Program-made: the position numbers and the translations under genes
In this document: positions 44,768-62,358 of the stretch, in pieces
Layout: each line of letters begins with the position of its first letter
Position numbering within the stretch: position 1 is the stretch's first letter
Notes under the pieces: generated by a model
The model's input: only the letters and a program-made list of their open reading frames with translations
Told to the model about the DNA's origin: nothing
Databases searched by the model: none
DNA from: Streptomyces sp. B3I8
GTDB taxonomy: Bacteria; Actinomycetota; Actinomycetes; Streptomycetales; Streptomycetaceae
Length of the DNA: 64,000 nt
Assembly (NCBI RefSeq): GCF_030816915.1
Contig: NZ_JAUSYN010000002.1
Span: 5,407,501 to 5,471,500, forward strand
Direction of reading: 5' to 3'

Positions 44768-45775
44768 TCAGCTCGGCCTCGCGACCATCAGATGCGTCTC
44801 CAGAGGCAGATCGTGGATGGTCTCCAGGGTGAAGCCGGCCTTGGCGAGGAGGGTGCGGTACTGCGTCTCGTCCCGCTCCCGGCCGCCCCCGAGGACCACC
44901 AGCATGTGCATGTTGTAACCCTGGGTCAGTGAAGAGCCGGTGCCCGGGACCAGTACGCGTTCCAGGATCACCAGCTTGCCGTCGGGGGCCATCGCGCTAC
45001 GGCAGTTGGCGAGGATCCGCCCGCACGCCTCGTCGTCGAAGCAGTGCAGGATGCGGGAGAGAAGGTAGACGTCTCCGTCGGGCGGGACCGACTCGAAGAA
45101 GTTCCCGGCGACCCGTTCGCACCGGTCCGCGTGGTCCGTGGCGATCGGGCGGTCCGCGCTCTCCTCGATCACGTGCGGGGCGTCGAACAGGACGGCGCGC
45201 GGGCCCTGGTTGGCGTTGAGGATCTCGTTGAGAAGCGCTCCGTGCCCGCCCGCGACGTCCACGATCCGTCGCGCACCGGAGAAGTCGCAGGCGCTGTTGA
45301 CCTCGGCGAAGAAGGGGGTCCCCGCCACCATGGCCCGCTCGTAGGTCAGCGAGACCTCGGGGTTCTGGTGCAGGTACGAGAACAGGTCGGTGCCGTAGAC
45401 GTGCGCGAACGCCGAGCGTCCGGTGCGCAGCGAATGGGACAGCGCGCCCCAGGCCGGGTAGAAGTGCGAGCCGTAGATGCGTACGTGGTCGCGCATCGAG
45501 TCGCGGGTGTCGGCGCGCAGCAGGTCGCCGATCTCGGTCAGCGCCCAGCCGCCGGCCTCGTCACCCTCGACCACTCCCAGGCTCTCCAGGAACAGCAGGA
45601 GCCGCCCCAGGGCATCGGCGTCGGTGCGGGTCGCGAGGGACAGGGCGATGGTCGGAGCGCGGCCCGCGGCCGCGATGGCGTCGACGGTGCCCGACTCGAC
45701 GGCGAGGTGGACGGCCTGGGTCTTCCAGAACCCGGCCATCAGCTCGAACAGTTGACGCCCTGCTGTTTCCCTCAT
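44768..45775 (-). CDS. SAM-dependent O-methyltransferase (plant-type, Methyltransf_2)
   Basis: 335 residues from ATG 45775, two bases after the ligase stop. The N-terminal dimerisation domain (RQLFELMAGFWKTQAVHLAV) is followed by the SAM-binding RIVDVAGGHGALLNEILNAN and the downstream LFDAPHVIEES, LSRILHCFDDEACGRILANC and LVILERVLVPG. This family methylates phenolic hydroxyls in aromatic and polyketide products. As last gene of the FMO-ligase-OMT set it may methylate the hydroxyl of 3-amino-4-hydroxybenzoate or of the hydroxylated product. Confidence 0.88.
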   Translation of the reverse strand: MRETAGRQLFELMAGFWKTQAVHLAVESGTVDAIAAAGRAPTIALSLATRTDADALGRLLLFLESLGVVEGDEAGGWALTEIGDLLRADTRDSMRDHVRIYGSHFYPAWGALSHSLRTGRSAFAHVYGTDLFSYLHQNPEVSLTYERAMVAGTPFFAEVNSACDFSGARRIVDVAGGHGALLNEILNANQGPRAVLFDAPHVIEESADRPIATDHADRCERVAGNFFESVPPDGDVYLLSRILHCFDDEACGRILANCRSAMAPDGKLVILERVLVPGTGSSLTQGYNMHMLVVLGGGRERDETQYRTLLAKAGFTLETIHDLPLETHLMVARPS

Positions 45776-45777
45776 GG

Positions 45778-47436
45778 TCAGGCCCCCTTCGTAGTGTCCG
45801 GCACCGCGCGCATCCCGCCGGGGGGCGGGTGCTCCTCCCACAGCCGTCGGGCGAGTTCGGAACGTTGTATCTTCCGGGTCGAGGTGCGCGGCAGGTCGTC
45901 GAACCGGAGTTGGCGGAAGGCGCTCATCGGGGGCAGGTCGACGGTCGCCCGCCGCCACCGGCTCTCGTCGAGGGGCGCTTCGCCCCTGGTGGCCACGACC
46001 GGGACCGGCTCGCCCCGCGGGTCCGCCACGATCACCACTTCCCGCAGCTCTTCGAGGCGGCCCATCAGGAGGTCCTCGACCGCGAGGCTGCTGTCCACGG
46101 CATCGATCCGGTCCACCTCGCGGTCCATCAGGTGCAGCAGCCCCCGGCGGTCGAGGTAGCCCGTGTCACCGACCCGCCACCAGCCGTCGCGCAGTTCGCT
46201 CCGGAACCGCTCGTCCTCGCCCAGGTAGGTGAGGATCCGGGTGCGGCTGCGCACTTCGAGGTGGCCGCTCCGTCCGGGTCCGAGCCGTCGGCCCGAGTCG
46301 TCGACGACGCGCAGGGAGACGAAGCCGGGCAGCGGAAGCCCGACGCAGCGGCCGTCGGCCTTGTGGGCGGTGCGGCGTGTGTACCAGCGGCCGGCCATGG
46401 GACCGATCTCCGACTGTCCGTAGAACTGGACGAAGACCGGTCGCCGGTGCCGTGAGGCGGCGAGCATCCGCTGGATGGTGCGCGGGTGCATCGCGTCGAA
46501 CGTGGCACCGAAGACGCGGACGCTGGACAGGGGAGCGCCGGGCGCGTGGTCGAGCTCCTCCCAGTCGATGTAGGTGTTGGGATGAGTCTCGATGTATCCG
46601 GGGCGGGTCCGGACGAACAGCGGGCCGATCTTGTCGGGGTGCGGATCCACGGCGATCACCATCGGGTTGCCGTGGCTGAGGAACATGGCGAGCCCCTGGT
46701 AGAAGCGGGAGTGCACGAACGTCATGCACAGCGCGGCCGTCTCCTTCCCCCGGATGGGCCAGGAGACCACCCGCTGCGGAACGAGCCGGTGCCAGCCGGC
46801 CTCGGGGCAGTGCACGGCAAGCTTCGGGATGCCGGTCGTACCGGAGCTGTGTGTGATCAGTGACGGCTGGCGCGGGTGGAGGAAGACCGGCTCGGGTACG
46901 GGGGCATCCGCGTACTCGGCGAGCGCGATCGGCTCGACGGTCCGGTCGGCGGTTTCCGCGACGAGGTCGGGGGGAGCCGTCCCGGCGGACAGCAGGACCT
47001 GGCGTACGTCGTCGGCCAGGGGCACGCCGCGCAGCTTGCCCGCGAGGGTGTCGCCGTCGGTCAGCAGCCACGGCTTCTCGAGCCGGACGAGCAGTTCGTG
47101 CGCGACCGCGCCGTCCAGGGCAGGTGACAGCAGCGCGGGTACGGCGCCGATCCGCGCGGCGGCGCAGGCGAGCAGGGCGATGTCGAAGTCGTCGCTCTTG
47201 TACAGCGCCACCCGTTCGGTGGGCCGGACTCCCACCGCCCAGAGGCGGGCCGCCAGCTCATCTATCTGATCGGCCAGTTGGCCGACGGTGAAGTGCGTTC
47301 CCCGGTCCGGCGCGTACTGCGGCGGGCGGTCCAGCGTGATCTGTGTCGTGGCGTCCCGGCGCGCGGCGGCGTGGAAGATGTCGCCGATGTAGAAGCCGTT
47401 CCCGCGGGTGACCCGGCTCAACAGCGTGTGCAGCAC
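45778..47436 (-). CDS. AMP-dependent acyl/aryl ligase of the 3,4-AHBA cluster
   Basis: 552 residues from GTG 47436 (GAGGAG upstream). ANL motifs are SLITHSSGTTGIPKLAVH, VQFYGQSEIGPMAGR, RDGWWRVGDTGYLDRRG and the catalytic-lysine end TSTRKIQRSELARRLWEE. Adenylates a carboxylic acid and passes it to CoA or a carrier. In AHBA clusters such ligases activate AHBA or a cinnamoyl partner, and that is the likeliest role here. The stop is two bases from the methyltransferase start, and its own start is 16 bases after the FMO stop. The open frame extends further upstream over the FMO gene and is discounted. Confidence 0.9.
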   Translation of the reverse strand: MLHTLLSRVTRGNGFYIGDIFHAAARRDATTQITLDRPPQYAPDRGTHFTVGQLADQIDELAARLWAVGVRPTERVALYKSDDFDIALLACAAARIGAVPALLSPALDGAVAHELLVRLEKPWLLTDGDTLAGKLRGVPLADDVRQVLLSAGTAPPDLVAETADRTVEPIALAEYADAPVPEPVFLHPRQPSLITHSSGTTGIPKLAVHCPEAGWHRLVPQRVVSWPIRGKETAALCMTFVHSRFYQGLAMFLSHGNPMVIAVDPHPDKIGPLFVRTRPGYIETHPNTYIDWEELDHAPGAPLSSVRVFGATFDAMHPRTIQRMLAASRHRRPVFVQFYGQSEIGPMAGRWYTRRTAHKADGRCVGLPLPGFVSLRVVDDSGRRLGPGRSGHLEVRSRTRILTYLGEDERFRSELRDGWWRVGDTGYLDRRGLLHLMDREVDRIDAVDSSLAVEDLLMGRLEELREVVIVADPRGEPVPVVATRGEAPLDESRWRRATVDLPPMSAFRQLRFDDLPRTSTRKIQRSELARRLWEEHPPPGGMRAVPDTTKGA

Positions 47437-47452: not shown

Positions 47453-48685
47453 TCAGGGGCGAGCGGTGAGGCGTCCGGCCGAGGGCTCCCGTCCGGGTTC
47501 CGGGGCCGTGGTCGTCGCGACGGCTTCGTGGCCGTACAGCCAGTCGAGGTGCTCCAGGTCCTGTCGCGCGCGCATCTCACGGTCGCGCCGCTCCTGGTGC
47601 GTGCCGTCGGGGAGGTGGAACGTCCGCCCGAGGGCGCGGGCGCGCCGGTGGACATCGGCGGTACGGGGCATGCGCAGCCTCTCGTAGCGGCGGACGGCCC
47701 CGGTCAGGTCGCCGGGACGGGCCTCCTTCAGGCAGCGCGCGAGCACCTCGGCGTCCTCCAGCGCCTGGTTCGCCCCTTGCGAGAGGTAGGGGAGGGTGGG
47801 GTGTGCGGCATCGCCGAGCAGTACCACCCGACCGGTGGCGTACCGGTCGGCCATGTCACGGTCGAACAGGTTCCACCGGGTGACCGACGTGGCGGCGGTC
47901 ACCACCCGTCGGACCTCCTCGTGCCAGCCGGCGAACGCCGCGTCGAGGTCCTCGACGGCGCCAGGGGCCGAGGAGGAACCGGAAGGGGTGTCCGGGTCGG
48001 CGCCGACGGCGCTGAAGTGGACGGTGTCGCCGCCCGCGACGGGGTAGTACGTGACGTGCCGCCCGGGGCCGAGCCAGAACATCACTCGCGGATCATGGGC
48101 GAAGGAGGGCACCACCTCGGCCGGGACGAGGCCTCGGTGCACCGAGTAGCCCGAGTGCCGCGGCGCGTCGTCCACGACCGCCCGGCGGACGACGGAGTGC
48201 ACGCCGTCGGCCCCGATCACCAGGTCGGCGGTGGTCACGGAGCCGTCCGTGAGGTGGAGTTCGACCGTGTCGGGCCGTTGAACCAGGCGGGTGCAGCCCC
48301 TGCCGAGTTCGACGATGCCCTCGGGCACGGCGGACACCAGGCAGCGCTGCAGATCCGCGCGGTGGATCAGGTAGTACGGGGCGCCGAACCGTTCGTCGCA
48401 CAGGGTGCCGTGCGGCACCCGGGAGATCGGGCTTCCGTCGTCCCACCGCCGGGTCTCGACGGCACCGGCTCGTACCGCGGTCCGGGCGAGGGCGTCGGCG
48501 AGCCCGAGCCGGTGCAGGACGCGTACTCCGTTGGGGGAGAGCTGGATGCCGGCGCCCACGGCTCCCCACACCGGTGTCCGCTCGAAAAGCCGGACGTCCA
48601 TGCCATGGCCGTGCAGAAGCGTGGCGGTGACCAGACCGGCCACGCCACCTCCCACGATGGCTACCTGTGCCTTCGACGGGGCCAT
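47453..48685 (-). CDS. FAD-dependent aromatic monooxygenase
   Basis: 410 residues. It starts MAPSKAQVAIVGGGVAGLVT (GxGxxG for FAD), has the mid-chain DG motif LVIGADGVHSVVRRAVV and the GD motif VVLLGDAAHPTLPYLSQGANQALEDAEVL. This is the salicylate / 3-hydroxybenzoate hydroxylase branch, which hydroxylates phenolic rings, sometimes with loss of carboxylate. Following it are the ligase and methyltransferase genes, so an AHBA-derived ring is the likely substrate. No membrane segment. The terminator at 48858-48896 separates it from the exporter gene upstream. Confidence 0.9.
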   Translation of the reverse strand: MAPSKAQVAIVGGGVAGLVTATLLHGHGMDVRLFERTPVWGAVGAGIQLSPNGVRVLHRLGLADALARTAVRAGAVETRRWDDGSPISRVPHGTLCDERFGAPYYLIHRADLQRCLVSAVPEGIVELGRGCTRLVQRPDTVELHLTDGSVTTADLVIGADGVHSVVRRAVVDDAPRHSGYSVHRGLVPAEVVPSFAHDPRVMFWLGPGRHVTYYPVAGGDTVHFSAVGADPDTPSGSSSAPGAVEDLDAAFAGWHEEVRRVVTAATSVTRWNLFDRDMADRYATGRVVLLGDAAHPTLPYLSQGANQALEDAEVLARCLKEARPGDLTGAVRRYERLRMPRTADVHRRARALGRTFHLPDGTHQERRDREMRARQDLEHLDWLYGHEAVATTTAPEPGREPSAGRLTARP

Positions 48686-48930: not shown

Positions 48931-50208
48931 TCAGCCGCGTCGGTCCTGTTCGATCCGGCGTGGTGAGAGCCGGGCGATGGGGGCGAGCATGAGCAGGGTG
49001 ACGGCGGCGAGGAGACCGAAGCCGAGACGGTAGTCACCGGTGGCATCGCGCAGGCCGCCCACGACCACCGGTCCGACGGCCGCGCACGCGTACCCGACGA
49101 AGAACGCCATGGCGGCGAAGCGCCCGGCCTGTGCGGCGTCCCGGCTCGCCGAGACGGGCAGGGTCAGCACCAGCGTGAACAGTCCGCCGTGTCCGATGCC
49201 CATGGCGAGGACCCAGAGCCAGGTGCCGGTGCCGGGGCTGAAGGCGAAGCCCACGAATCCCACGGCGGTCAGCGCCGTCGTCACCGCGAGTCCGAGGCGT
49301 TTGTCGTCGCGCTCGCCGAGCAGGACAGGAACGCCCAGCATCGCGACGACCTGGATGGAGATCATCACCGTCAGCATGAAGCCGGCCCGGGCCTCGGTCA
49401 GTCCGCCGTCGTCGTGCAGCAACGGCGCGATCCACGCCAACTCGCAGTAGTACAGGGCGGAGTTGCCGGCGGAGATCGCGGTGATCCGCCAGGCCAGGCC
49501 GGAACGCCAGGGCAGACCGGTGGTGGCCGGGCCCTTGGGGCCGTCGATGTGGGCGAGGCGCAGCGGCCCCTTCGCCGCCGACCAGAGCACGATGCCGGCG
49601 ACGGCGAGGAGCGCCCAGGAGGCCAGGGCCGCGGGCCAGGAGTCGAGCGCGTCGGCCAGCGGGGCGCTGACCCCGGCCGCCACCGCGCCGCCCAGTCCGA
49701 GCCCCGCCGTGTAGATCCCGGTCACCAGGCCTGCGCGGTCGGCGAAGCGGGTCTTCACGACGGCCGGCAGCAGCGTCTGGGAGATGGCGATGCCGGCGCC
49801 CACGACGGCGGCGCAGCACAGCTGGAGCCAGGTGGCCGTGCTCAGCCCCCGGGCCGCGGTGGCCGCGGCGACGACGACCAGGCCGATCAGCACGCCTCGC
49901 TGCAGTCCCCACCTGCGGCCCACCGACGCGGCCAGCGGAGCGCACAGGCCCATGGCCAGGGTCGGGATGGTCGTCAACAGGGACACCGCGGTCGCCGACA
50001 GGCCGAGGTCCGTGCGGATCCGGTCCACCAGGGGCGAGACCGCGGCGATCGCGGGACGCAGGTTGGCCGCCGCCACGAACAGGGCCACGGCGGCGAACCC
50101 GAGGGCCGCGTGCTCCCGTCCAGAGGCCGAAGCGGCGTCTTCCGAGCGGTGCCCCGGCGTCGCGGCAGCGGGTGACGTGGGAGTTAAACGATCTTCAGTC
50201 TCACTCAT
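48931..50208 (-). CDS. MFS exporter, CynX/NimT-like
   Basis: 425 residues from ATG 50208; a GTG three codons upstream is possible. About twelve hydrophobic helices are visible, with LLTTIPTLAMGLCAPLAASVGRR (loop 2-3) and VVVGAGIAISQTLLPAVVKT-like segments, fitting the CynX/NimT family of small-anion and drug permeases. Leu8 is TTA (50187-50185), so translation may depend on bldA. Divergent from the Rrf2 gene with an operator-like repeat between them. It probably exports the AHBA-derived compound or confers resistance, but the substrate is not readable from sequence. Confidence 0.88.
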   Translation of the reverse strand: MSETEDRLTPTSPAAATPGHRSEDAASASGREHAALGFAAVALFVAAANLRPAIAAVSPLVDRIRTDLGLSATAVSLLTTIPTLAMGLCAPLAASVGRRWGLQRGVLIGLVVVAAATAARGLSTATWLQLCCAAVVGAGIAISQTLLPAVVKTRFADRAGLVTGIYTAGLGLGGAVAAGVSAPLADALDSWPAALASWALLAVAGIVLWSAAKGPLRLAHIDGPKGPATTGLPWRSGLAWRITAISAGNSALYYCELAWIAPLLHDDGGLTEARAGFMLTVMISIQVVAMLGVPVLLGERDDKRLGLAVTTALTAVGFVGFAFSPGTGTWLWVLAMGIGHGGLFTLVLTLPVSASRDAAQAGRFAAMAFFVGYACAAVGPVVVGGLRDATGDYRLGFGLLAAVTLLMLAPIARLSPRRIEQDRRG

Positions 50209-50225
50209 GACCTGCACCTTCGTCC

Positions 50226-50304: not shown

Positions 50305-50321
50305 ACTGCTATCCTGGCGTC

Positions 50322-50801: not shown

Positions 50802-50877
50802 TCGGCGCCGGGTGACCGGCCCTTCGTTCCGCCCGCACCGCCCCCCTTACCGCGTGTTCCCGGAGGTGCATCGAGCA

Positions 50878-51903: not shown

Positions 51904-51910
51904 GGCCCCT

Positions 51911-51960
51911 GCGGCGGCCGGGGTACCGGAAACAACCGTTTCCGGTACCCCGGCCGCCGC
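51911..51960. terminator. 23-bp perfect stem between convergent regulators
   Basis: Arms 51911-51933 and 51938-51960 are exactly complementary with a four-base loop (AACC). It begins eight bases after the StrR-like stop and precedes the SARP stop by 70 bases, so it ends transcription from both directions. Confidence 0.85.
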
Positions 51961-52028
51961 CGGCGCGCGGCCACCGAGGCGGGCGGTCCGGTGCTGGTGG
52001 ACACGCCCTCGCGCGGCTGGAACCCGGC

Positions 52029-52892
52029 TCAGATGGCGAGGGCGTCCGAGGTCAGGATGGCCAGTTGCAGGTCCTGGAGCGGGGCTCCGGGTTCGATCCC
52101 GATCTCGTTCACCAGACGCAGTCGCAGGGAGCGCAGGACCTCCAGAGCCTCGGCGCGACGGCCGCCGAGCGCGAGTGCCTGCACGTACTGGTGGTGCAGG
52201 GCCTCGTGCAGCGGGTGTTCCCGGGTGACGGCGGCGAGCTGGGTGATGGCCCGCTGATGCAGTCCTGCCCTGATCTGTGCCTCGGCGCGCGTGGCTATCG
52301 CGTCGAGTCTCGATTCCTCGAACAGTCTCCGCTTGGATTCGAGCACGCGGCCGGCCGGTGCGTCCGCCAGCGCGTCCCCCCGCCACAGGTCCAGGGCCGC
52401 GTCCAGCAGACCGATGCCCTCGGCCGTCTCCCCTTCGCCCAGTGCTCTGCGTCCGCGCCCCGTCAGACGCTGGAACTCCAGCCAGTCGAGCTGGAGGTGG
52501 TCACCTTTCAGGCAGTAGCCGCCGGATCCGGTCACCAGCACCTCCCGGGAGACCCGGGCGGCGGAGCATCCGATGATGCGGGTCAGCAGTTTCCGGCAAT
52601 TCAGAATGTAGGTCTGCAGGGTGCGCAGACCTGTCACGGGCGGGTTCTCCTGCCACAGCTCCCGTACAAGGCTCTGGACGGGAACCACCTGGTCGACGTG
52701 GACCAGCAGCATGGCCAGAACCGTTCGAATCTTCGGTGCGACCGCGACGGCTTCGACCGCCCCGTCGACACCTATGTGCAGGGCACCCAGGACCCTGGCG
52801 TGCACTAGAGGGTGAGCACGCGCGGTTCGAGGGGCGTCGCGCACGAGGCGTGAATCGAGCCCTGAGTCGGTCGCGTAGTTCGACTGATACAC
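52029..52892 (-). CDS. SARP-family activator (OmpR-like DNA-binding plus BTAD)
   Basis: 287 residues from GTG 52892 with GGGGGAC upstream. DNA-binding part: VAPKIRTVLAMLLVHVDQVV, LVRELWQENPPVTGLRTLQT and YILNCRKLL. Bacterial transcriptional activation domain: ALGEGETAEGIGLLDAALDL and following helical repeats through HEALHHQYVQALALGGRRAE. The length is that of short SARPs such as ActII-ORF4 and RedD. It is divergent from griI/griH, whose promoter it probably activates. SARPs bind direct heptamer repeats; I did not find a clear pair, but a 33-base palindrome lies in the intergenic region. Confidence 0.9.
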   Translation of the reverse strand: MYQSNYATDSGLDSRLVRDAPRTARAHPLVHARVLGALHIGVDGAVEAVAVAPKIRTVLAMLLVHVDQVVPVQSLVRELWQENPPVTGLRTLQTYILNCRKLLTRIIGCSAARVSREVLVTGSGGYCLKGDHLQLDWLEFQRLTGRGRRALGEGETAEGIGLLDAALDLWRGDALADAPAGRVLESKRRLFEESRLDAIATRAEAQIRAGLHQRAITQLAAVTREHPLHEALHHQYVQALALGGRRAEALEVLRSLRLRLVNEIGIEPGAPLQDLQLAILTSDALAI

Positions 52893-53052
52893 ATGTCCCC
52901 CATCACTCGAATCCGGTCACCTATTGCCAGAGATCGGCGGCGTGGATTGACTGGAGCGTCCCCAAAGGTAACAGCCCCCCTTCACCCGCTCAGATCGATT
53001 TCGGACGACCTGGCTGTAAACAGTGAAGGGAATATCGGCTACCGCTTCCGCC

Positions 53053-53085
53053 CTGTGCAACCGAGGAAATTCCTCGGTTGCACAG
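53053..53085. promoter_or_regulatory. 33-base near-perfect palindrome upstream of griI
   Basis: Arm CTGTGCAACCGAGGAA (53053-53068) and its exact complement (53070-53085) flank one central base. It lies about 170 bases upstream of griI and 160 upstream of the SARP gene, with AT-richer surroundings. With almost no loop it is better explained as a protein-binding site than as a terminator; the rest of 52893-53253 is promoter space without genes. Confidence 0.65.
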
Positions 53086-53253
53086 CGGTCCGCGCGACCT
53101 GCGATCGAACGGCGCGCAGCAGCCGTCTCACAGGTCCGGGCTGTATCTCAACGGTTCCTTCGACTGTTTCTTGAACGCCTTCTGTGACGCTGCGAGTGCC
53201 CCGCCGAAATCAACCTCCGACTGTTCCACAGCAGCCGGCAGAAGGAGTACCCG

Positions 53254-54069
53254 ATGGCGCGTGCACCATTGACCGGTAGAGCATTACGTCTGGCCAGACT
53301 CTCCAGTCATGACGACGGACGGCTTCTGCTCGTTCCCCTGGACCATTCGGTGTCCGACGGCCCCATCACCACGGCCGCGGACTTCGGTGACCTGGTACGT
53401 GACATCGTGCACGGGGGAGCGGACGGCATCGTCGTGCACAAGGGCCGGGCCCGCTCGCTCGCTCCGCGGCTGTTCTCCAGCTGCTCGCTCATCGTCCACC
53501 TCAGCGCCAGTACCGCGCTCGGGCCCGACAGTGATGCCAAAGTCCTGGTCGGGGACGTCGAGGAGGCGGTCCGGCTGGGAGCGGACGCGGTCAGCGTCCA
53601 TGTGAACATCGGAGCCGACACCGAGGCCGCTCAACTCGCCGATCTGGGCGCGGTCTCGGCGGCGTGCGACCGGTGGAGCATGCCCCTGCTCGCGATGGCG
53701 TACCCGCGCGGTCCGCGACTGACCGGGCCCGCCTCCCCCGAGCAGGTGGCACACGTGGCCAACATCGCCGCCGACCTCGGTGCCGACGTGGTCAAGACGG
53801 TCTTCGTCGGCCCGGCGGAACGCATGGCCGAGGTCGTCGCCGGCTCACCCGTGCCGATCCTGGTGGCGGGAGGCGCCGCGGACGAGCAGAGCCTGGTCGA
53901 TTTCGCCCGTACCGCGCTGGCCGGCGGGTGCTGCGGCCTCGCCGTGGGGCGGCGCGTCTTCACCTCCCGCGCTCCGGGGCGCGTCGTCCGCGAACTCGCC
54001 GACATCGTGCACGGCCCGGCCGGGGCCACCGACCCCCTCCCTTCCCGACACATGGCAGGTGTGATGTGA
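53254..54069 (+). CDS. griI: GriI-type aldolase for 3-amino-4-hydroxybenzoate synthesis
   Basis: 271 residues from ATG 53254, GAAGGAG six bases upstream. It is a DhnA-like class I aldolase: LLLVPLDHSVSDGPITTAAD, ADGIVVHKGRARSLAPRLFS, DAVSVHVNIGADTEAAQLAD and DVVKTVFVGPAERMAEVVAG with the Schiff-base lysine, then PILVAGGAADEQSLVDFA. GriI condenses aspartate semialdehyde and dihydroxyacetone phosphate to a C7 aminophosphoketoacid. Codon 11 is TTA (53284-53286), hence possible bldA control. The stop overlaps griH by GTGA. Pairing with griH makes the assignment secure. Confidence 0.95.
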   Translation: MARAPLTGRALRLARLSSHDDGRLLLVPLDHSVSDGPITTAADFGDLVRDIVHGGADGIVVHKGRARSLAPRLFSSCSLIVHLSASTALGPDSDAKVLVGDVEEAVRLGADAVSVHVNIGADTEAAQLADLGAVSAACDRWSMPLLAMAYPRGPRLTGPASPEQVAHVANIAADLGADVVKTVFVGPAERMAEVVAGSPVPILVAGGAADEQSLVDFARTALAGGCCGLAVGRRVFTSRAPGRVVRELADIVHGPAGATDPLPSRHMAGVM

Positions 54070-55169
54070 AGCTCAGCTGGATCGACATCCGTGACCTCGG
54101 CTCCGCGAAGGACGCCATCCTCCAAGAAGCGATACACGCGCGCGTCGACGGCATCCTCGCCGCGGTCCCCGAGGACCTCGAGCACCTGCCGCCGACCGTG
54201 AAGAAGATCCTGTTCCCCCAGGACCGGCCGCTGCCCGAGGACTTCGGTGCCGCGGACGTGGTCATCGTCGACCCGGCCAAGCACGGGGACCCCGGCGAGC
54301 TGGCCGGCCGCCACCCGGACATCGAGTTCGGCCGGTATGTCGAGATCAGGGATGCCGCGACCCTGGAGGACGCCTGCGCGTCCGGCCGCACGGACAAATG
54401 GAGTCTGCTGTTCTTCCGCGACCCCACGAAGATCCCGCTGGAGATCGTGATCGCCGCGGCGGCCGGGTCGAAGGGCAGCCTGATCACCGTCGCGCAGGAC
54501 GTCGAGGAAGCCGGGATCATCTTCGGCGTGCTGGAGCTGGGCTCGGACGGGGTACTCATGGCCCCGGCCCGGGTGGGCGACGTCACGGCGCTGCGGCAGG
54601 CGGCCGAGACCGGGGTACCCGATCTGGCCCTGGTCGAGCTCGAGATCACGGCGACGGCCCACGTGGGTATGGGGGAGCGGGCCTGCGTGGACACCGCCAC
54701 GTACTTCCGCAAGGACGAGGGCATCCTCGTCGGCTCGCACTCCAAGGGCATGATCCTCTGTGTCAGCGAGACCCACCCCCTGCCGTACATGCCCACCCGG
54801 CCGTTCCGCGTCAACGCCGGGGCGATCCACTCGTACACGCTGGCCATGGACCAGCGCACCAGTTATCTGAGCGAGTTGAAGGCGGGCAGCAAGGTCACCG
54901 CGGTGGACATCCACGGCCGGTCCCGGCTGGTGACCGTGGGCCGTGTCAAGATCGAGTCCCGTCCGCTGCTGTCCGTCGACGCCGTCGGGCCCGACGGACG
55001 CACCGCCAACCTGATCCTCCAGGACGACTGGCACGTGCGGGTCCTCGGACCGGGCGGCACGGTACTCAACAGCACCGAGCTCAAGCCCGGCGACAAGGTG
55101 CTCGGCTACCTGCCCGTGGAAGACCGTCATGTCGGCTATCCGATCGACGAGTTCTGCCTGGAGAAGTGA
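54066..55169 (+). CDS. griH: GriH-type 3-amino-4-hydroxybenzoate synthase
   Basis: 367 residues from GTG 54066. It resembles archaeal-type 3-dehydroquinate synthase II: MKLSWIDIRDLGSAKDAILQ, VVIVDPAKHGDPGELAGRHP, VLMAPARVGDVTALRQAAE, VGMGERACVDTATYF, GMILCVSETHPLPYMPTRPF and RVNAGAIHSYT. GriH turns the GriI product into 3-amino-4-hydroxybenzoic acid, the precursor for grixazone, bagremycin, ferroverdin and manumycin-type compounds. The four-base overlap shows coupled synthesis with GriI. Confidence 0.95.
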   Translation: MKLSWIDIRDLGSAKDAILQEAIHARVDGILAAVPEDLEHLPPTVKKILFPQDRPLPEDFGAADVVIVDPAKHGDPGELAGRHPDIEFGRYVEIRDAATLEDACASGRTDKWSLLFFRDPTKIPLEIVIAAAAGSKGSLITVAQDVEEAGIIFGVLELGSDGVLMAPARVGDVTALRQAAETGVPDLALVELEITATAHVGMGERACVDTATYFRKDEGILVGSHSKGMILCVSETHPLPYMPTRPFRVNAGAIHSYTLAMDQRTSYLSELKAGSKVTAVDIHGRSRLVTVGRVKIESRPLLSVDAVGPDGRTANLILQDDWHVRVLGPGGTVLNSTELKPGDKVLGYLPVEDRHVGYPIDEFCLEK

Positions 55170-55246
55170 GTCCCCGGCCGGGGCGTTCCCCCTCGCCCCG
55201 GCCGGGTCCGCCCCGGACCGCACGGACGTCACAGGGAGAGTGCCTC

Positions 55247-55696
55247 ATGCCCAGCACACACGCTTCCCCTCACCGGTCGGCCCCCCGGCCGGCGCGGCGG
55301 CGAGAAACGGCCCTCGAACGGCGCGGTCTCGCCCTCCGGTTCGTCCTGATCATCGGGGACCAGCGGCTGGCCGAGGCCCACCACATCCTGTGCGACCAGG
55401 ACACCGTGGTGGTGGACTTCCCCGAATCGACCGTCCGTATCGGCCTGTCCAGGCTGTTGCCCGAGCCGGACGGAGGCGTCGTGCTGGACTGCCGCGTCCA
55501 GCTCCACGACGAGGACGGCACTCCGCGCGGCTGCGCCGCCACCTCGTGGCAGCGGGTGCTCACCGGCCGGCCGGGCGCCCTGCACCAGCGGGAGGCGCTG
55601 TTGCGCGAGGTGGTGGCGGCCAGAAGCCGGGTCCCCGACCGAGCCGTCGCCCGCCCGCGACTGGCGACGGTGCACTACCTGGCGGCAGCGGTGTGA
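55247..55696 (+). CDS. Hypothetical protein in the griIH operon
   Basis: 149 residues from ATG 55247 with GGGAG about eight bases upstream, 77 bases after griH on the same strand. The sequence is soluble and basic at the N-terminus (a 25-residue Arg/Pro-rich lead), then LRFVLIIGDQRLAEAHHILC, TVVVDFPESTVRIGLSRLL, and VVLDCRVQLHDEDGTPRGCA. No family recognised. It could be a cluster-specific accessory protein. Its stop is ten bases from the convergent MFS gene with no hairpin between. Confidence 0.75.
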   Translation: MPSTHASPHRSAPRPARRRETALERRGLALRFVLIIGDQRLAEAHHILCDQDTVVVDFPESTVRIGLSRLLPEPDGGVVLDCRVQLHDEDGTPRGCAATSWQRVLTGRPGALHQREALLREVVAARSRVPDRAVARPRLATVHYLAAAV

Positions 55697-55706: not shown

Positions 55707-56951
55707 CTAGGCCGGGTTCTCGAAGCGCGCCACGCCGGGCACGGCCAGGCTCAGGAGGCTCGACGCGGCGACCACGGTACCTCCGGCGACGAGGGTGGCG
55801 GTCATGCCCAGCCAGTCGACCATGGGGCCGACGAGCGCGAATCCGACCGGCAGGAGCGCGTACGCGCCCAGTTGGTCCAGAGCGAAGACCTTGCCGAGGA
55901 GCGCGTCCGGGAAGGCGCGCTGCAACGCCGAGACCCAGTACACGAAGTACAGCTCGACCACGAAGCCGCCCAGCGCGAAACAGAGAATCACCACGGGCAA
56001 CGGAAACGGCGCGGCCAGACTCAGCGGCACCAGCGCGTACCCGGTCAGCGCGAGCATCGACACGGTTCCCCGTGCCCGGGGCCGCATGCGTCCCGCCAGC
56101 ACGATCGCCGGGAGAGCGCCGACCCCCATGGCGGCCAGCACGACGCCGTACGCCACATCGCCGCCGAAGTCGCGCCGTGCCACGATCGGCAGGAGCGTGA
56201 GCGCGGTCGCCGAGCCGGCGAACAGGTGCAGGCACACCGTGCCCATCACGGCCATGACCCAGGGACGCCGGCGAATGGCCCGGAGCCCGGCGGCCACCTC
56301 ACCGAGTACGGACGCACGGGCGGCCGCCGAGGGCTTGGCGTCCGACACCCGCAGGACACAGAGCGAGGCCAGCGCGAACACGGTGCCGGTCACCAGCAGC
56401 GCGGGCCGGACCCCGATCAGGGTCACCGCGGTCACCCCGACCAGCGCACCACCGACGGCCGCGCTCCGCTGCGCCGCGGAGACCAGGGCGTTGCCCCGCT
56501 CCAGGAGGCCGTCGGGCAGCAGGTTCGGCAGCAGCGAGCGCGACGCCGGCCGGGAGAGGGCCTCGCCGGCCCCGACCAGCGCGGTGATCAGGGGCAGGGC
56601 GCCCAGTGGCAGCCGGGTGAGGAGGACGGCGGTGACGAGCAGGACGGCCGCGCGGAACCCGTCGGCCGCGATCAGGATGCGCGTGCGGCGCAACCGGTCC
56701 GCGATCACGCCGCCGGCCAGCAGACACGCCACCAGGGCCACACCCCGGCCGGCCAGTACCAGGCCGACCTGCCCGGCACCGCCTCCCTCGTGCAGGACAT
56801 ACAGGCTCAAGGACACCGGGAACACCTGGTCGCCGACGGCCCCGGCGGCCTGTCCCGCCCACAGCCGCAGGAACTGCGGGTGATCCCGTAACTTCCCGTC
56901 GTCCGGCGCGTCCTCGTCTACGCGGCGGGCCGCGGTGGTGTCTTCCGTCAT
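55707..56951 (-). CDS. MFS exporter of the peptide locus
   Basis: 414 residues from ATG 56951, overlapping the cupin stop by ATGA. Twelve hydrophobic spans typical of the MFS_3/EntS-like group: FLRLWAGQAAGAVGDQVFPV, GLVLAGRGVALVACLLAGGVIADRLRR (loop motif A) and ASRSLLPNLLPDGLLERGNA. Leu21 is TTA (56891-56889). A long open frame upstream is not coding. As the coupled last gene of the SagB/cupin set it should export the modified product or protect the host from it. Confidence 0.88.
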   Translation of the reverse strand: MTEDTTAARRVDEDAPDDGKLRDHPQFLRLWAGQAAGAVGDQVFPVSLSLYVLHEGGGAGQVGLVLAGRGVALVACLLAGGVIADRLRRTRILIAADGFRAAVLLVTAVLLTRLPLGALPLITALVGAGEALSRPASRSLLPNLLPDGLLERGNALVSAAQRSAAVGGALVGVTAVTLIGVRPALLVTGTVFALASLCVLRVSDAKPSAAARASVLGEVAAGLRAIRRRPWVMAVMGTVCLHLFAGSATALTLLPIVARRDFGGDVAYGVVLAAMGVGALPAIVLAGRMRPRARGTVSMLALTGYALVPLSLAAPFPLPVVILCFALGGFVVELYFVYWVSALQRAFPDALLGKVFALDQLGAYALLPVGFALVGPMVDWLGMTATLVAGGTVVAASSLLSLAVPGVARFENPA

Positions 56952-58231
56952 GAGTGGTCCGGATCGCTTTCTCTTCCCGGTGCGCCGTCCGGCCGCACCG
57001 CCTCCTGCGATGTGGTGGCGTCCCAGGGCGCGGAGGGTGGCAGCAGCAGACCGATGTCGACCAGTGCCGCGGCCACCTTTCGTGCGTTGTCCTCGCCCAG
57101 GGCCGCGGTGAGCCCCGCCGTGTCCGCGACCTGGTCGCGGTGCAACGCCGTCAGGAAGGGCGACACCGATGCGGGCAGCCGCACCCGACGGTTTCCCACC
57201 GACAGCTGAATGCCATCCTTCACGGAGGCCGTGTGAAAGTACACGCCCGCCCGCAGCCGGTGAACACCTCGCGGCCGTACGTCCTTCGGCACGGGCAGGA
57301 TCGGCACGGGTTCCGGCGTCTGTTCCCGGAACGCCGCTTTCCGCACCGCCCACAGCACGTCTTCCGGTGCCGCGTCGGCGGCCAGCGCCGCGAGCCGTTC
57401 GCCGGCTTTCCCGAGCAGCTCCCGCGCGAGCCGGGGGTCGCTCATGAGCCCGTTGGTGTCGACAGCGACGCGCATCCACTCGTCGTCGACCGCCTCGCGG
57501 ACCAGTTCGCCGAGCAGATCGTGCCGGGTGATCGTGGAAACGGCGACGGTGAGGTGGATGGACAGCGTGTCCCGTGTCATCGGTGAGTGCATCGTCCCCC
57601 GCGGCAGGTACAGACTGTCGCCGGTCCGCAGGACCAGATCCGCGAGCGGCCGGGCGGCCGCTCGCATCTCCTCCCGCCGCCGCGCCGGAACGTCGAACCA
57701 GGCGTGGGCCGGCAGGGGGTCGGGCAGCGGAGGCGTACGCAGCAGCCACCGCTTGTCGCCCGCTATCTGCAGAACCAGCACGTCCTGGACGTCGAAGTGC
57801 AGATCCACCCCTTGCGAGCCGGGCGGTGTGACGAAGGCGTTGACCTTGACGGGGTGACCGAGCTCGGCCGCCAGCTCATGCGCGAAGCGCCGTACCGGAG
57901 GGTGGAAGCGGTGCAGGGAGCGCACGATCAGGGTCTGCCCCGAGGCGAGCGCCTGCCGCAGACCGTCGGTGTCGGGAAACGGCGCCGCTCCGGGCGCGTC
58001 ACCCGATTCGGCGACGCAGCCCCGGGCCACGTCACCTTCCACGCCGTCACGCACGAGTCGCAGCGAAGAGGTGCGCAGTCCGCCCGAGAGCAGTTCCTCC
58101 AGGGCCTGGGGCGAGAACAGGTCGGTGAAGTCGGCCGCCAGATCGGCGGCCCGGGTGTGCAGGTACGAGTGACCGAACACCGCTGTGCGGAACTCGTCCG
58201 GCGGCAGCGCGACACATCGCTTCAGACTCAT
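56948..58231 (-). CDS. JmjC-like cupin oxygenase with C-terminal winged-helix segment
   Basis: 427 residues from ATG 58231 (GCAGGAG upstream). The fold resembles cupin_4/ROX arginine hydroxylases: VDLHFDVQDVLVLQIAGDKR gives His145-x-Asp147, and LYLPRGTMHSPM gives His215, the Fe(II) triad of 2-oxoglutarate dioxygenases. The SIHLTVAVSTITRHDLL segment follows. Residues about 345-400 (VGNRRVRLPASVSPFLTALH then GEDNARKVAAALVDIGLLLP) look like a small winged helix, similar in pattern to the N-terminus of the neighbouring SagB protein. By family it hydroxylates a peptide or protein side chain; here the 20-residue peptide is the obvious candidate. Start is 58 bases after the SagB stop. Confidence 0.85.
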   Translation of the reverse strand: MSLKRCVALPPDEFRTAVFGHSYLHTRAADLAADFTDLFSPQALEELLSGGLRTSSLRLVRDGVEGDVARGCVAESGDAPGAAPFPDTDGLRQALASGQTLIVRSLHRFHPPVRRFAHELAAELGHPVKVNAFVTPPGSQGVDLHFDVQDVLVLQIAGDKRWLLRTPPLPDPLPAHAWFDVPARRREEMRAAARPLADLVLRTGDSLYLPRGTMHSPMTRDTLSIHLTVAVSTITRHDLLGELVREAVDDEWMRVAVDTNGLMSDPRLARELLGKAGERLAALAADAAPEDVLWAVRKAAFREQTPEPVPILPVPKDVRPRGVHRLRAGVYFHTASVKDGIQLSVGNRRVRLPASVSPFLTALHRDQVADTAGLTAALGEDNARKVAAALVDIGLLLPPSAPWDATTSQEAVRPDGAPGRESDPDHS

Positions 58232-58289
58232 GACCCACTCCTGCGGCAGAAGGCCCGGTGCGGGAGACGAACCACTGCGAACCGCTGTG

Positions 58290-59387
58290 TCATCGCACCA
58301 CTCCCGGGCTCGGGAAGGCGAAATCGGCCGGGAGCAGGGAGTCGGGTTCCTCCGGAACCCCCGCGGCCAGCAGATAGACGGCGAACTCGTCGTCGGGGTC
58401 GACACCCAGGAATTGCTCCACCCGGCTGTCGGCGAAGGCGACGGTCTGGAAGGGGCCGAGACCCAGAGCCGTGGCGGTCAGCGAGAAGGTCTGCCCGTAG
58501 TGCCCGGCGTCGTACATCCACAGGCGATAGGCGCGTGGGTGACGGTACTTCCAGGCCAGACGGTTGGCGACGGCCGTTGTGAGAATGGTGAACGCGCCCT
58601 GGTACGAGGCGTCCTGGTGGTACGTCAGGTCGGCCAGCCGTGCCCGGTCGGCCCGGGCGTCCAGGAGCTCCAGCGCATGGCGCACCACCGAGTAGTGGTA
58701 CAGGCCGGGCGGAACACCGGTGACGTTGTGGGCGACGACGTACGCCTCGACCTCGTGACGGCCGCCGGCCGAAGCGCTCACCCGGCACTGCTGCGTGCCG
58801 AAGTCTCCGCCGTCGATGAACCGGTGCGGCGCGAAGCTGTGGAAGAGCAGCGTTCCGAGCCGGTCGAGACTGACGGGGGCGTCCGCGAACCGGCGATGGG
58901 TACGCCGTGCGGCGAACACCTCGTCCACGGGCGTGGTCAGGGGCAGGGGCCTGCGCGGCAGCAGCACGACAGGGCTGTCCGGATACTCCTTGTACGCCGG
59001 CGGCGCATCGCCGCCGGCGAGGATCGCCTGCGCCTCGTCGGTCCGTCTCGGTGAGTCGACGAGGTAATCGACATCCCGCGTCTCGGTGTGGAAGCGCCGC
59101 GTGAGACCGCCCCAGCGCTGCCACAGGTCCGGAACCCGCTGGTCCCCGTCCACGGGGGCGAGCACCCCGAGCCGGAGCAGACCGGTCACCGCCCGGCGCA
59201 CGCCGGCCTCGTGCCGCGAGCCGAACGCGGCCGCCAGGTCGTCCAGGTCGATTCCGTCCCCGGCCCGGTCCAGTACCTTGCGCAGATCGTCCGAGAGCCT
59301 GATCCACTGCGCCCGTCCCGGGACGCCGACCTCAAGTCCCTCGGGACGCCACCTCAGGACGAGGTGTTCGGGACGGCGGACCTTCAT
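58290..59387 (-). CDS. SagB/ThcOx-type FMN dehydrogenase with N-terminal winged-helix segment
   Basis: 365 residues from ATG 59387 (AAAGGAAG upstream). Residues about 20-78 form a helix-rich lead (WIRLSDDLRKVLDRAGDGID, AGVRRAVTGLLRLGVL) resembling a winged helix. The nitroreductase-fold part (about 155-350) reads VFAARRTHRRFADAPVSLDR, GTLLFHSFAPHRF, VSASAGGRHEVEAYVVAHNV, GLYHYSVVRHALELL and MYDAGHYGQTFSLTATALGL. In azole-forming RiPP pathways SagB oxidises azolines with FMN; no YcaO cyclodehydratase is present here, so it may oxidise another bond. It follows the small peptide gene by 94 bases with a hairpin between. Confidence 0.9.
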   Translation of the reverse strand: MKVRRPEHLVLRWRPEGLEVGVPGRAQWIRLSDDLRKVLDRAGDGIDLDDLAAAFGSRHEAGVRRAVTGLLRLGVLAPVDGDQRVPDLWQRWGGLTRRFHTETRDVDYLVDSPRRTDEAQAILAGGDAPPAYKEYPDSPVVLLPRRPLPLTTPVDEVFAARRTHRRFADAPVSLDRLGTLLFHSFAPHRFIDGGDFGTQQCRVSASAGGRHEVEAYVVAHNVTGVPPGLYHYSVVRHALELLDARADRARLADLTYHQDASYQGAFTILTTAVANRLAWKYRHPRAYRLWMYDAGHYGQTFSLTATALGLGPFQTVAFADSRVEQFLGVDPDDEFAVYLLAAGVPEEPDSLLPADFAFPSPGVVR

Positions 59388-59422
59388 GCACGTCTTCCTT
59401 TCGGCGAGCGCTCCTTGGATGT

Positions 59423-59458
59423 GGTCCGGCTGTGACGCACAAGCGGCACAGCCGGACC
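59423..59458 (-). terminator. Intergenic hairpin between peptide and SagB genes
   Basis: A perfect 12-bp stem pairs 59423-59434 with 59447-59458 (arm GGTCCGGCTGTG), loop of 12. It is about 24 bases past the peptide stop and upstream of the SagB ribosome site. Such partial terminators commonly raise precursor over enzyme levels in peptide operons. Confidence 0.6.
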
Positions 59459-59481
59459 TGCCGTTCGTTCACGCGGGACGA

Positions 59482-59544
59482 TCAGGTGGACGGGTGGTGC
59501 AGCAGCACCTGGCCGTCCTCGACGATCTCGATGTCGAGCTCCAT
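59482..59544 (-). CDS. Putative 20-residue RiPP precursor peptide
   Basis: ATG 59544 to TGA 59482 encodes MELDIEIVEDGQVLLHHPST. AGGGGGTG ends about six bases before the ATG, an excellent ribosome site. Residues 1-11 are acidic/hydrophobic (leader-like, with LDIEIVED); the C-terminus QVLLHHPST has two His, Ser and Thr but no Cys, so it offers groups for hydroxylation or dehydrogenation rather than thiazole formation. It precedes SagB and cupin genes on the same strand with a hairpin between. The frame is open upstream to 59910, but that extension lacks ribosome site and coding bias. Known precursor families are not matched from memory. Translation and role are inference. Confidence 0.65.
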   Translation of the reverse strand: MELDIEIVEDGQVLLHHPST

Positions 59545-60291
59545 TTTTGTCACCCCCTGTTGCCTGGTCCGTGGTTTCCCGGTACGTCGGCGGAGAGGAA
59601 AAGCGAACCCATTCGCATCCTGGGCCGCTATTCGTCCTGCCGGCGCCTTCGACATTAGGGCCGTGGTTTCGGCTCCGGCAAGACGCCCCGCGCTCAATGG
59701 CCAAAAATGCGGCCGTGCCGCGCCAACTCTATGAAGAAACCCCAGGTGAAGCCCTACTCGACCGATTCGACTCCGCCGCTCATCGCTTCCTGAATCAGTC
59801 TTCACGGAATTACGGAACAAATCTTGAGTGGTTCTCCACAGGGTGCCGCTAGGATCTCCCGCCCGGGAACAGTGTAATGACGCGGCGACCCTGTTTCGAG
59901 GGTCCGCCATTTCCGGAAGACCTGGGAATTACTCACGGCCGTGCCGTGGGGGGGGGAGAGAGAGAACGCGGGTGCGACGAGGAAGGTGAGGCAGCGCTGG
60001 GCGGTGGCGCGGGAGACGCCGATCCGTTCGCCGACCCGGCCGGCGGAGAGCGGGGTGGGGGAGTTCTGACGGCCGTCAGGACCGCGTCGCCCGTCACCGT
60101 GCGCACGGTGGGGCGCGGTCTCGGACGGCCCTTGGGCAGGCGACGAAGTCGCACACCACCATCCGGACCGTCGTGAGCGTCTGCGGGCCGCTGATGGCGC
60201 TGCTGCTGTCGGTGTTCGCCCGACGTGGGCCCGCCGTAGCGGTGGTGATCAACGGCTGTGCGACGAGCGGGCGTTGGGGCATGCTGGCCCC
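59545..60291. other. Promoter space of the peptide locus and a decayed regulator fragment
   Basis: Bases 59545-59880 are less GC-rich than neighbours and must hold the peptide promoter on the minus strand. On the minus strand about 60150-59960, one frame reads VRTVTGDAVLTAVRT and another SAGRVGERIGVSRATAQRCL, the helix-turn-helix of a CitB/DcuR-like response regulator, split by a frameshift and lacking the receiver domain. I take it as a gene remnant. No intact gene is supported. Confidence 0.4.
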
Positions 60292-61025: not shown

Positions 61026-62351
61026 CTACGGGACGCGGCGGAAGACCGGTTGCACCGGGCGGCCGCCGAGCCACGGTGTCGGATCGCCCGCGTCCAGCGC
61101 CTTGCGGTAGACCGCGCAGGCCTGCGACACCACCTCCACCGTGTGGGCGATGTCCGCTTCACTGAGCGCCGCGCTCACCACGAACGACGGGGCCAGTACC
61201 CCACCCGCCAGCAGCCGCCGCAGGAACAGCGTGCGGTACGGCTGCGAGGGCCGCCCGCTCTCGTCGAGCGTCGCGAAGACGAGGTTGCTGGCCCGGCCCC
61301 GGACGAGGACGTGGTCGCCGACGCCCATGCCGGCCGCCGCCTCGCGGACCCCCGCCGCCAGCCGTTCGCCGAGGGCGTGCAGCCGCGCGGTGACGCCCTC
61401 CTCCACATACGTGGCCTGCACGGCCATCGCCGCCGCCAGGGAGTGCGTCTCCGCGCCGTGCGTCGTGGAGAGCAGGAACACCCGCTCACCGCAGTGCCGC
61501 AGCCCGCCCCGCTCCATCAGCTCCCGGCGCCCGGCCAGCGCCGAGACGGCGAAGCCGTTGCCGAGCGCCTTGCCGAACGTGGAGAGGTCGGGCGTGACCC
61601 CGTACAACCCCTGGGCGCCCGCCTCCGACCAGCGGAAACCGGTGATCATCTCGTCGAAGACCAGGACGCAGCCGTGCCGGGAGGCCAGTTCGCGCAGTCC
61701 CGCCAGATATCCGGGCGGGGGCTCTGCGGCGGCGGCCGGTTCCAGGATCAGGCAGGCGATCTCGCCCTCGTACCGGGTGAGCAGTTCCTTCGTCGCGGCC
61801 AGGTCGCCGTACGGGAAGGACACGGTCAGCTCGGTGATCGCCGCCGGGATGCCGGCGGACATCGGGGTCGTCCCGATGAACCAGTCGTCGACGGAGAAGA
61901 AGGGGTGGTCGGCGCAGACGGCCACGCGTGGGCGCCCCGTGGCGGCGCGGGCGAGCCGCACCGCCGCCGTCGTCGCGTCGGAGCCGTTCTTCGCGAACTT
62001 CACCATCTCGGCGGTCGGCACCGTCGCCAGGAACCGTTCCGCGGCCGCCAGTTCCACCACGGACGGCCGGACGAAGTTGCTGCCCCGCTCCAGTTCGCGC
62101 CGCACCGCCTCCGTCACACGAGGGTGGGCGTGGCCGAGGCTGACCGAGCGCAGCCCGGAGCCGTACTCGACGTACCGGTTGCCGTCGACGTCCCACACAT
62201 GGGCACCGCGCCCGTGGCTGATGACCGGGGCCAGGTCCTCGGGGTACTGGTCGTCGCCCTTGGCATAGGTGTGCGCGCCGCCGGGGACCAGCGCGTGCAG
62301 TCGCGCGTTGGCCTGCCGGGAGCGGGGCAGTTCGAACTCTTCGGTGGTCAC
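61026..62351 (-). CDS. Class III aminotransferase, glutamate-1-semialdehyde mutase-like
   Basis: 441 residues from GTG 62351. PLP-binding features: VWDVDGNRYVEYGSGLRSVS, FAKNGSDATTAAVRLARAAT, ACLILEPAAAAEPPPGYLAG, VLVFDEMITGFRWSEAGAQG and the Schiff-base lysine in STFGKALGNGFAVSALAGR. It is the HemL-like branch, which includes sugar and amino-acid aminotransferases besides the tetrapyrrole enzyme. Sitting seven bases after an RmlC-like gene and next to a pyruvyl transferase, it is probably a tailoring enzyme for a surface sugar or metabolite, not the housekeeping hemL. Confidence 0.88.
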   Translation of the reverse strand: MTTEEFELPRSRQANARLHALVPGGAHTYAKGDDQYPEDLAPVISHGRGAHVWDVDGNRYVEYGSGLRSVSLGHAHPRVTEAVRRELERGSNFVRPSVVELAAAERFLATVPTAEMVKFAKNGSDATTAAVRLARAATGRPRVAVCADHPFFSVDDWFIGTTPMSAGIPAAITELTVSFPYGDLAATKELLTRYEGEIACLILEPAAAAEPPPGYLAGLRELASRHGCVLVFDEMITGFRWSEAGAQGLYGVTPDLSTFGKALGNGFAVSALAGRRELMERGGLRHCGERVFLLSTTHGAETHSLAAAMAVQATYVEEGVTARLHALGERLAAGVREAAAGMGVGDHVLVRGRASNLVFATLDESGRPSQPYRTLFLRRLLAGGVLAPSFVVSAALSEADIAHTVEVVSQACAVYRKALDAGDPTPWLGGRPVQPVFRRVP

Positions 62352-62358
62352 GGGGGCC

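Follow-up and report, generated by a model that had tools for sequence, protein, structure and literature searches.

Results

Genes and features of the cassette

The stretch of DNA analyzed here (the window) comprises 64,000 nucleotides of Streptomyces sp. B3I8 (contig NZ_JAUSYN010000002.1, positions 5,407,501 to 5,471,500), and the element in question is a small cassette read on its minus strand from position 59544 down to 55707, in which a 20-codon gene, a hairpin and the genes for a SagB-type dehydrogenase, a JmjC/cupin oxygenase and a major facilitator superfamily (MFS) exporter follow one another in the same orientation (Table 1). An initial annotation, made from the sequence alone, had listed the same parts; all of them are present, and its naming of the three proteins matches Pfam and NCBIfam. 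It had also described the genes as partly overlapping, which is true of JmjC and MFS (4 bases) and not of SagB and JmjC, which lie 58 bases apart, and the ribosome site that it called strong is indeed there, with a sequence, AGGGGG, that is weaker than the GGAGG of most relatives. We read the locus as a small cassette for a ribosomally synthesized and post-translationally modified peptide (RiPP), with proposed modification and export, and assign to this reading a probability of about 0.8.

A short peptide gene recurs upstream of SagB

When 392 genomes of the genus were searched with the JmjC protein, three others had a close match (89, 59 and 57% identity), in each case with SagB and MFS genes beside it, and a SagB-alignment scan of GTDB species genomes gave 13 loci with two repeats (L038 = G306 = L033 and L043 = G071 = L035). 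Counted without repeats and together with the window, L034 and L096, these make 16 distinct close SagB loci from Streptomyces, Streptoalloteichus, Amycolatopsis and Micromonospora. Upstream of SagB, 15 of them have a short peptide gene, with as many as three copies in tandem. The sixteenth, L096 (G355:C1:1658000-1672500), is a decayed cassette, where SagB, a ribosome-site-like stretch and a JmjC fragment are left and the peptide and MFS genes are gone. Half of the refutation test that the initial annotation had set for itself concerned a conserved LDIEIVED-like short open reading frame (ORF) upstream of homologous SagB genes, and on this half its proposal came through.

When upstream regions were scanned for the peptide motif together with a ribosome site, the peptide was found in 14 of the 16 real regions and in none of 6,400 Markov-resampled ones; the two misses were the decayed locus and the window itself, the latter because its site reads GGGGG. 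Searched as a degenerate DNA pattern, the peptide occurred at five places in 3/392 genus genomes, all of them before this SagB; the reversed pattern occurred in 0/392. The forward pattern missed one true case, G071, which has a codon outside those allowed. By these comparisons, the recurrence of the 20-codon gene is not chance. A longer in-frame ORF (142 aa, 59482-59910) was ruled out as the true gene, because the frame is closed just upstream in L033 and most relatives align over the last 18-20 codons only.

The window, L037 and L038 share the peptide MELDIEIVEDGQVLLHHPST. The other forms are MALDIEIIEDGQVLLHHPST in S. atratus, MKLVIEIVEDSRVLVHHPGT in L040, MALDIKIVEDGKKLLHHPSV in L044, MDIVIIEDTEVVAHHPSL in L042, MFEIEIVEDDVTLLNHPTL and MFEIEIVEDEMTLLNHPTL in Streptoalloteichus, MEFEIEIVENDASLLDHPSG and MQFEIEIVEDDAQLLHHPTT in one Amycolatopsis genome and MAFEIVIVETDEELLHHPTT in Micromonospora, and MDIVIIEDREVVAHHPSL is found three times in L034, where the third copy ends in K, twice in S. 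roseus, and in S. silvae as one copy plus a diverged one. Start codons are preceded by a purine-rich site, mostly containing GGAGG or GAGG, and where genes stand in tandem (two or three, in L034, L041 and L043) each copy has its own ribosome site. Precursors of the close family are 18-20 residues long; across 19 copies, numbered as in the window, Ile5, Ile7, Glu9 and His17 are invariant, position 16 is occupied by His, Asn or Asp only, and position 18 by Pro in 18 copies. The initial annotation had called the peptide Cys-free, which is borne out in all 19 copies, and no peptide has more than three Ser/Thr. Synonymous sites of the gene are quiet in the window's clade, with 0 changes seen and 4.8 expected between the window and L037 (P 0.004), and P values of 0.004, 0.002 and 0.06 against L039, L040 and L038, respectively; among L034, L041 and L043 they vary to the expected extent, and L042 against L043 gave P 0.04.

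A conserved hairpin separates the peptide gene from SagB

The hairpin is present between peptide gene and SagB in 15/15 peptide-bearing close loci, and also before SagB in L096. In an alignment of 15 stems, which leaves out L039, 93% of the cells pair, with changes on both sides at 10 of the 15 pairs, and pairing falls to 30-45% when the stem partner is slid by 1-3 bases. Four of five covariation measures lie above shuffles; the fifth, the number of further pair types, which tells against the hairpin, does not (438 of 500 shuffles reach it), and an Rfam search returned a single match far below the cut-off (E 0.53). The 15 bases that follow contain 0-5 T. An intrinsic terminator is unsupported, and because the T-run is absent we take the hairpin for a stabiliser of the mRNA or a partial stop, and not for a classical terminator.

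SagB, JmjC and MFS proteins

SagB matches the Pfam nitroreductase family (1.4e-18) and the SagB domain TIGR03605 (106.6 bits, cut-off 78.4) and falls below the cut-off of the related TIGR04511 (134.5 against 240 bits). Other features of the SagB/ThcOx class are a ThcOx-like flavin mononucleotide (FMN) fold in the model and a Lys-Tyr pair, presumably catalytic. The N-terminus is modelled as a winged helix, strands followed by three helices, that resembles a RiPP recognition element (RRE), and its top PDB matches are RiPP enzymes. These PDB rows stem from a first AF2 model alone, whose quality was low beyond residues 1-80 and from which we took the N-terminal domain only; the second, built on a deeper alignment (pLDDT 91.5), returned a PDB list taken up by flavin-domain matches. 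By sequence, Pfam PqqD matched 0/15 SagB members and the LanB N-terminus 3/15. SagB is predicted from the model to carry an RRE-like domain.

The iron triad HxD...H of the JmjC protein (Table 1) is invariant in 48 sequences, as in oxygenases of the NO66/MINA/ROXA type. JmjC had been presented as a fixed partner of SagB, a view that we abandon: the gene is absent from two close loci and doubled in four (L034, L041, L042 and L043), where JmjC-A lies between SagB and JmjC-B. With 0, 1 or 2 copies per locus, the core is therefore peptide, SagB and MFS, the MFS gene being present in 15/15 peptide-bearing close loci (split in two pieces in L042). The four loci with doubled JmjC also have in common an upstream neighbourhood with a gene that we take, from its sequence features, to be ketosynthase-like. 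Around more distant JmjC relatives (26 of 30 loci, 37-44% identity), the short flanks contained neither a cassette-type SagB nor an MFS gene above 45 bits.

Absence of YcaO and RiPP class

No YcaO gene lies near the SagB in any of the five close-family genomes among 18 genomes searched. The nearest is 2.4 Mb off in the window's genome and 1.7 and 4.5 Mb off in G269; the two of G071 are on other contigs than SagB, G306 has none over the cut-off and G355 none. The single YcaO of the window's genome (C2:3016952) adjoins another SagB (C2:3013604), 30% identical to that of the cassette, which is a useful internal contrast. In G353, a YcaO lies directly beside a wider-family SagB that has no short peptide, and another lies 14 kb from a second SagB. 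The initial annotation had reported no YcaO, lanthionine, radical-SAM or protease gene nearby, in agreement with Pfam on the genes called from 44.8 to 63.9 kb, a range with no confident gene at 50.3-52.0 kb; leader removal by host proteases is possible.

A gene-encoded precursor beside modifying enzymes, which marks RiPPs in general, is found in 15/16 close loci, and a RiPP-type system at the locus is well supported. The azole pathway (thiazole/oxazole-modified microcins, TOMM, and linear azol(in)e-containing peptides, LAP) was rejected because both a YcaO near SagB and Cys in the peptide are absent; the core is not rich in Cys, Ser and Thr. The N-terminal LDIEIVE (59485-59544) faintly resembles FxLD lanthipeptide precursors, at 12.4 bits (cut-off 30) and E 0.12, and neither LanB nor LanM is among the called genes.

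Wider SagB group

Upstream DNA was also read at 24 distinct loci of more distant SagB relatives (about 30-46% identity), and at 13 of them a 19-34 residue ORF with a ribosome site is followed by a hairpin and then SagB. The peptides, for example MKKVELAAKPVQARSIKIHYQR, MRKMTVNVKPVVTEEKYLVLHSA, MRRIEMKHRIAIRADRPRAGEGSTWNWTWAYRQA and MIKIEPVEELTIIIQFSPS, mostly start alike and differ at their ends. As to the other 11 loci, L066 could not be judged, the candidates of L064, L065 and L095 are unlike the rest, L083 adjoins a YcaO, L090 and L092 have an uncertain SagB start, and in the remainder no such peptide was seen. A wider-family regular expression matched 12/14 loci and 9/5,600 in the null, and since it was written after the peptides had been seen, on loci chosen for having a candidate, 13/24 is the fair count. 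Quite different 19-34 residue peptides, some with Trp/Tyr-rich C-termini, and hairpins were noted upstream of distant SagB genes in L059-L062 and L097-L105. The shared architecture, a motif seen after the fact, suggests a class of which the window's cassette would be one family.

The cassette within a cremeomycin-like gene neighbourhood

The locus had been described as minimal. It is not an isolated one: here and in four relatives the cassette lies inside a cremeomycin-like cluster for 3-amino-4-hydroxybenzoic acid (3,4-AHBA), with 3,4-AHBA synthase-type genes within 8 kb in 5/15 close loci (the window, L037, L038, L039 and L040). In the other 10/15, which keep the peptide, such genes were not seen within the DNA examined (up to 8 kb on each side; about 3 kb downstream for L044 and L047), and the cassette therefore seems able to stand alone.

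The window's set (44768-55696) consists of O-methyltransferase, AMP ligase, flavin adenine dinucleotide (FAD) monooxygenase, MFS transporter, Streptomyces antibiotic regulatory protein (SARP) and 3,4-AHBA aldolase and synthase genes, without CreD- or CreE-like genes; we assume possible CreN-like and CreL-like roles for the O-methyltransferase and the FAD monooxygenase. In L039, genes that we call CreD-like and CreE-like from family features stand between the 3,4-AHBA synthase-type genes, and L040 has a CreE-like gene. The L039 CreE-like query had no match in the window's genome at 1e-30, a 38% match in G306 and 61-100% matches in the genomes of L037, L039 and L040, that of L037 not on the cassette contig. 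Neither a CreD- nor a CreE-like gene is in the window; CreD was not searched genome-wide. A relative of the AMP ligase with 68-90% identity occurs in 6/14 related genomes, on the cassette contig in G306, L037, L039 and L040, on a separate short contig in L044 and on a contig of uncertain linkage in L047; 7/14 genomes had no match at E <= 1e-80, and G071 had 45% matches only. The name CreM was not found among the best 120 of 1059 AMP-ligase matches. UniRef names the SagB relative P0020 CreA and the JmjC relative P0139 CreB, which are 68 and 65% identical to the respective cassette proteins, and from this naming a link to the cremeomycin of S. cremeus is likely.

Table 1. Features of the cassette and its neighbourhood in the window.
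Feature	Position	Strand	Remarks
Precursor-like peptide gene MELDIEIVEDGQVLLHHPST	59482..59544 (ATG 59544, stop 59482)	minus	20 codons; kept in 15/16 close loci
Ribosome site AGGGGG	59553..59558	minus	8 bases from ATG of peptide gene
Hairpin between peptide gene and SagB	59423..59458	minus	about -32 kcal/mol; no T-run after it
SagB/ThcOx-type FMN dehydrogenase	58290..59387	minus	365 aa; RRE-like winged helix predicted at about residues 1-80 (model)
JmjC/cupin 2-oxoglutarate Fe(II) oxygenase	56948..58231	minus	427 aa; PF08007 6e-22; H145-x-D147 ... H215 invariant
MFS exporter	55707..56951	minus	414 aa; Pfam and NCBIfam
Hypothetical protein beside 3,4-AHBA genes	55247..55696	plus	in 5 close loci; no Pfam/NCBIfam match
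3,4-AHBA synthase-like (BagC/FevH family)	54066..55169	plus	NF041224 681.5 bits, cut-off 750; PF01959
DhnA-type aldolase (BagB/FevI family)	53254..54069	plus	NF041223 280 bits, cut-off 500; PRK07226 304, cut-off 241
SARP regulator	52029..52892	minus	context gene
Second MFS transporter	48931..50217	minus	context gene
FAD monooxygenase	47453..48685	minus	PF01494; context gene
AMP-binding ligase	45778..47430	minus	start uncertain; possible CreM-like role
O-methyltransferase	44768..45958	minus	PF00891; context gene

Other features of the window

At 61026-63878, genes for a glutamate-1-semialdehyde-type aminotransferase, a dTDP-4-dehydrorhamnose epimerase and a polysaccharide pyruvyl transferase stand in a row. 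The 758-aa protein encoded at 42198-44474, in which GmrSD_N and Schlafen AlbA_2 domains are recognized, resembles the candidate anti-phage proteins HEC-05. At 17279-29704, a nonribosomal peptide synthetase of 2427 aa has adenylation, condensation and methyltransferase domains, with AMP ligase and acyl-CoA dehydrogenase genes downstream.

Discussion

In the RiPP reading the 20-codon gene would encode the precursor, and the hairpin probably keeps its mRNA in excess over that of the enzymes. From the modelled fold, the N-terminal half of the peptide, LDIEIVED, would dock onto SagB's RRE-like domain in beta-strand form, and this domain would place the C-terminal GQVLLHHPST half at the FMN active site. 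There SagB would desaturate a Cα–Cβ bond by taking off two hydrogens, most probably at the invariant His17 or beside it, and JmjC, where present, would hydroxylate the side chain of residue 16; the MFS protein would export the product. In the window the cassette may act within, or alongside, a pathway for a small molecule derived from 3,4-AHBA.

By analogy, our best guess is that SagB would cause a change of -2 at the conserved H-P end and JmjC one of +16 at the H/N/D residue, because there are nitroreductase and JmjC precedents in passages of PMC12636437, PMC12707348 and PMC12257519. In the PflD pathway of Pseudomonas (pfl/pos), as given in passages of the preprint PMC12636437, a nitroreductase without YcaO makes Z-dehydroPhe (-2 Da) in the precursor, an iron oxygenase hydroxylates the neighbouring residue (+16 Da), and other YcaO-free nitroreductases could form other dehydroamino acids. 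The likeness lies in a YcaO-free nitroreductase and an iron oxygenase beside a ribosomal precursor; there, however, according to the same passages, one finds an MNIO (multinuclear non-heme iron-dependent oxidative enzyme)-nitroreductase fusion, a HEXXH enzyme and a long leader, whereas the present cassette combines a JmjC protein and a precursor of 18-20 residues with a SagB that has an RRE-like domain. JmjC or JmjC-related hydroxylases are described as acting on RiPP precursor residues, e.g., BipG, in passages of PMC12707348 and PMC12257519. The biphenomycin system (bip/bpm) shares with ours JmjC and a ribosomal precursor, and an MFS gene in the bip operon, but those passages give it MNIO, B12 radical-SAM and arginase-type chemistry and do not name SagB. 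The cremeomycin cluster (cre, BGC0001295), treated in passages of PMC11705231, has in common with the cassette the proteins named CreA and CreB, relatives of its SagB and JmjC, and adjacent 3,4-AHBA synthase-type genes, and differs from the window's genome, which has no CreE match, and from the window, which has no CreD-like gene. In contrast to the azole-forming SagB/McbC/ThcOx enzymes (TOMM/LAP, cyanobactins), no YcaO was found near, the peptide is Cys-free and the precursor is far shorter. The initial annotation had foreseen a different chemistry and a new RiPP family; the family does look new, and we rate the cassette as such, while both enzyme roles have precedent in the passages on PflD (PMC12636437) and BipG (PMC12707348). 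A literature search that covered mostly titles and the starts of abstracts returned no description of a SagB-JmjC-MFS peptide cassette and nothing on cremeomycin together with SagB, and a text search for the peptide strings gave no biological match among the matches listed.

The short ORF could instead be a regulatory leader peptide on which stalled ribosomes alter the hairpin and so control the SagB-JmjC-MFS operon, as before efflux or resistance genes. A short ORF directly followed by a conserved hairpin, with an exporter in the operon, would suit such a device, as would the strongly conserved C-terminus and the quiet synonymous sites of one clade, which hint, from sequence comparison, at an RNA-level constraint and do not decide the matter. 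We think it improbable: two or three tandem copies with ribosome sites of their own (L034, L041 and L043) are hard to reconcile with an attenuator and are common for RiPP precursors, the hairpin has no T-run, the dehydrogenase of the operon has a predicted RRE-like domain, and the peptides that accompany more distant SagB relatives are quite unlike this one. Slightly less probable still is that SagB, JmjC and MFS serve in tailoring, protection or export of a cremeomycin-like 3,4-AHBA molecule, the peptide being incidental or structural only. The linkage to 3,4-AHBA genes in 5/15 close loci, the CreA/CreB names, the AMP-ligase, O-methyltransferase and FAD monooxygenase genes that follow and the occurrence of an AMP-ligase relative (at least 68%) in six genomes would be expected in that case, but ten loci keep the peptide with no such genes in the DNA examined, the ligase is unmatched, or matched at 45% only, in the other eight genomes, and SagB has a modelled RRE-like fold.

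More room, although still well below even odds, must be given to the modified peptide or a fragment of it as a scaffold or cofactor precursor (like pyrroloquinoline quinone, PQQ, or mycofactocin, or as a His-based metal binder), possibly without leader removal. The whole peptide is very small and highly conserved, with His near the C-terminus, no protease was found among the called genes, and the MFS protein distantly matches the enterobactin exporter EntS (60 bits, cut-off 324). The patchy spread of the cassette argues against it: JmjC of at least 57% identity occurs in 3/391 other genomes of the genus, close-form SagB in 1/394 genomes of the class (the window's own), and among 61 relatives of G071 the cassette is found in G071 itself alone.

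Reaching beyond the RiPP cassette of the window, we tentatively consider, at clearly less than even odds, that SagB proteins with an RRE-like N-terminus and without YcaO form a widespread actinobacterial RiPP class, whose precursors of 18-34 residues, which gene callers easily overlook, would be desaturated at Cα–Cβ instead of undergoing azole oxidation; in the window's branch, the peptide would be doubly modified at its H/N/D-H-P motif and built into cremeomycin-like clusters, partnering or carrying a 3,4-AHBA-derived compound. A search for a SagB whose N-terminus is RRE-like, preceded by a hairpin and a tiny ORF, already yields more distant loci with very different peptides.

If the RiPP reading is true, the system would be a compact one, made of an 18-20 residue peptide, a flavoenzyme, an optional oxygenase and an exporter, in which SagB must do something other than azole oxidation, and a peptide gene possibly overlooked in annotation could explain CreA and CreB of the cremeomycin cluster. 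The role of YcaO-free nitroreductases is put as an open question in passages of PMC12636437, and for a test of it two genes of this family plus a synthetic peptide would suffice. Easily missed through its shortness and yet kept across several genera, the peptide gene suggests that a family of ribosomal natural products has so far gone undescribed.

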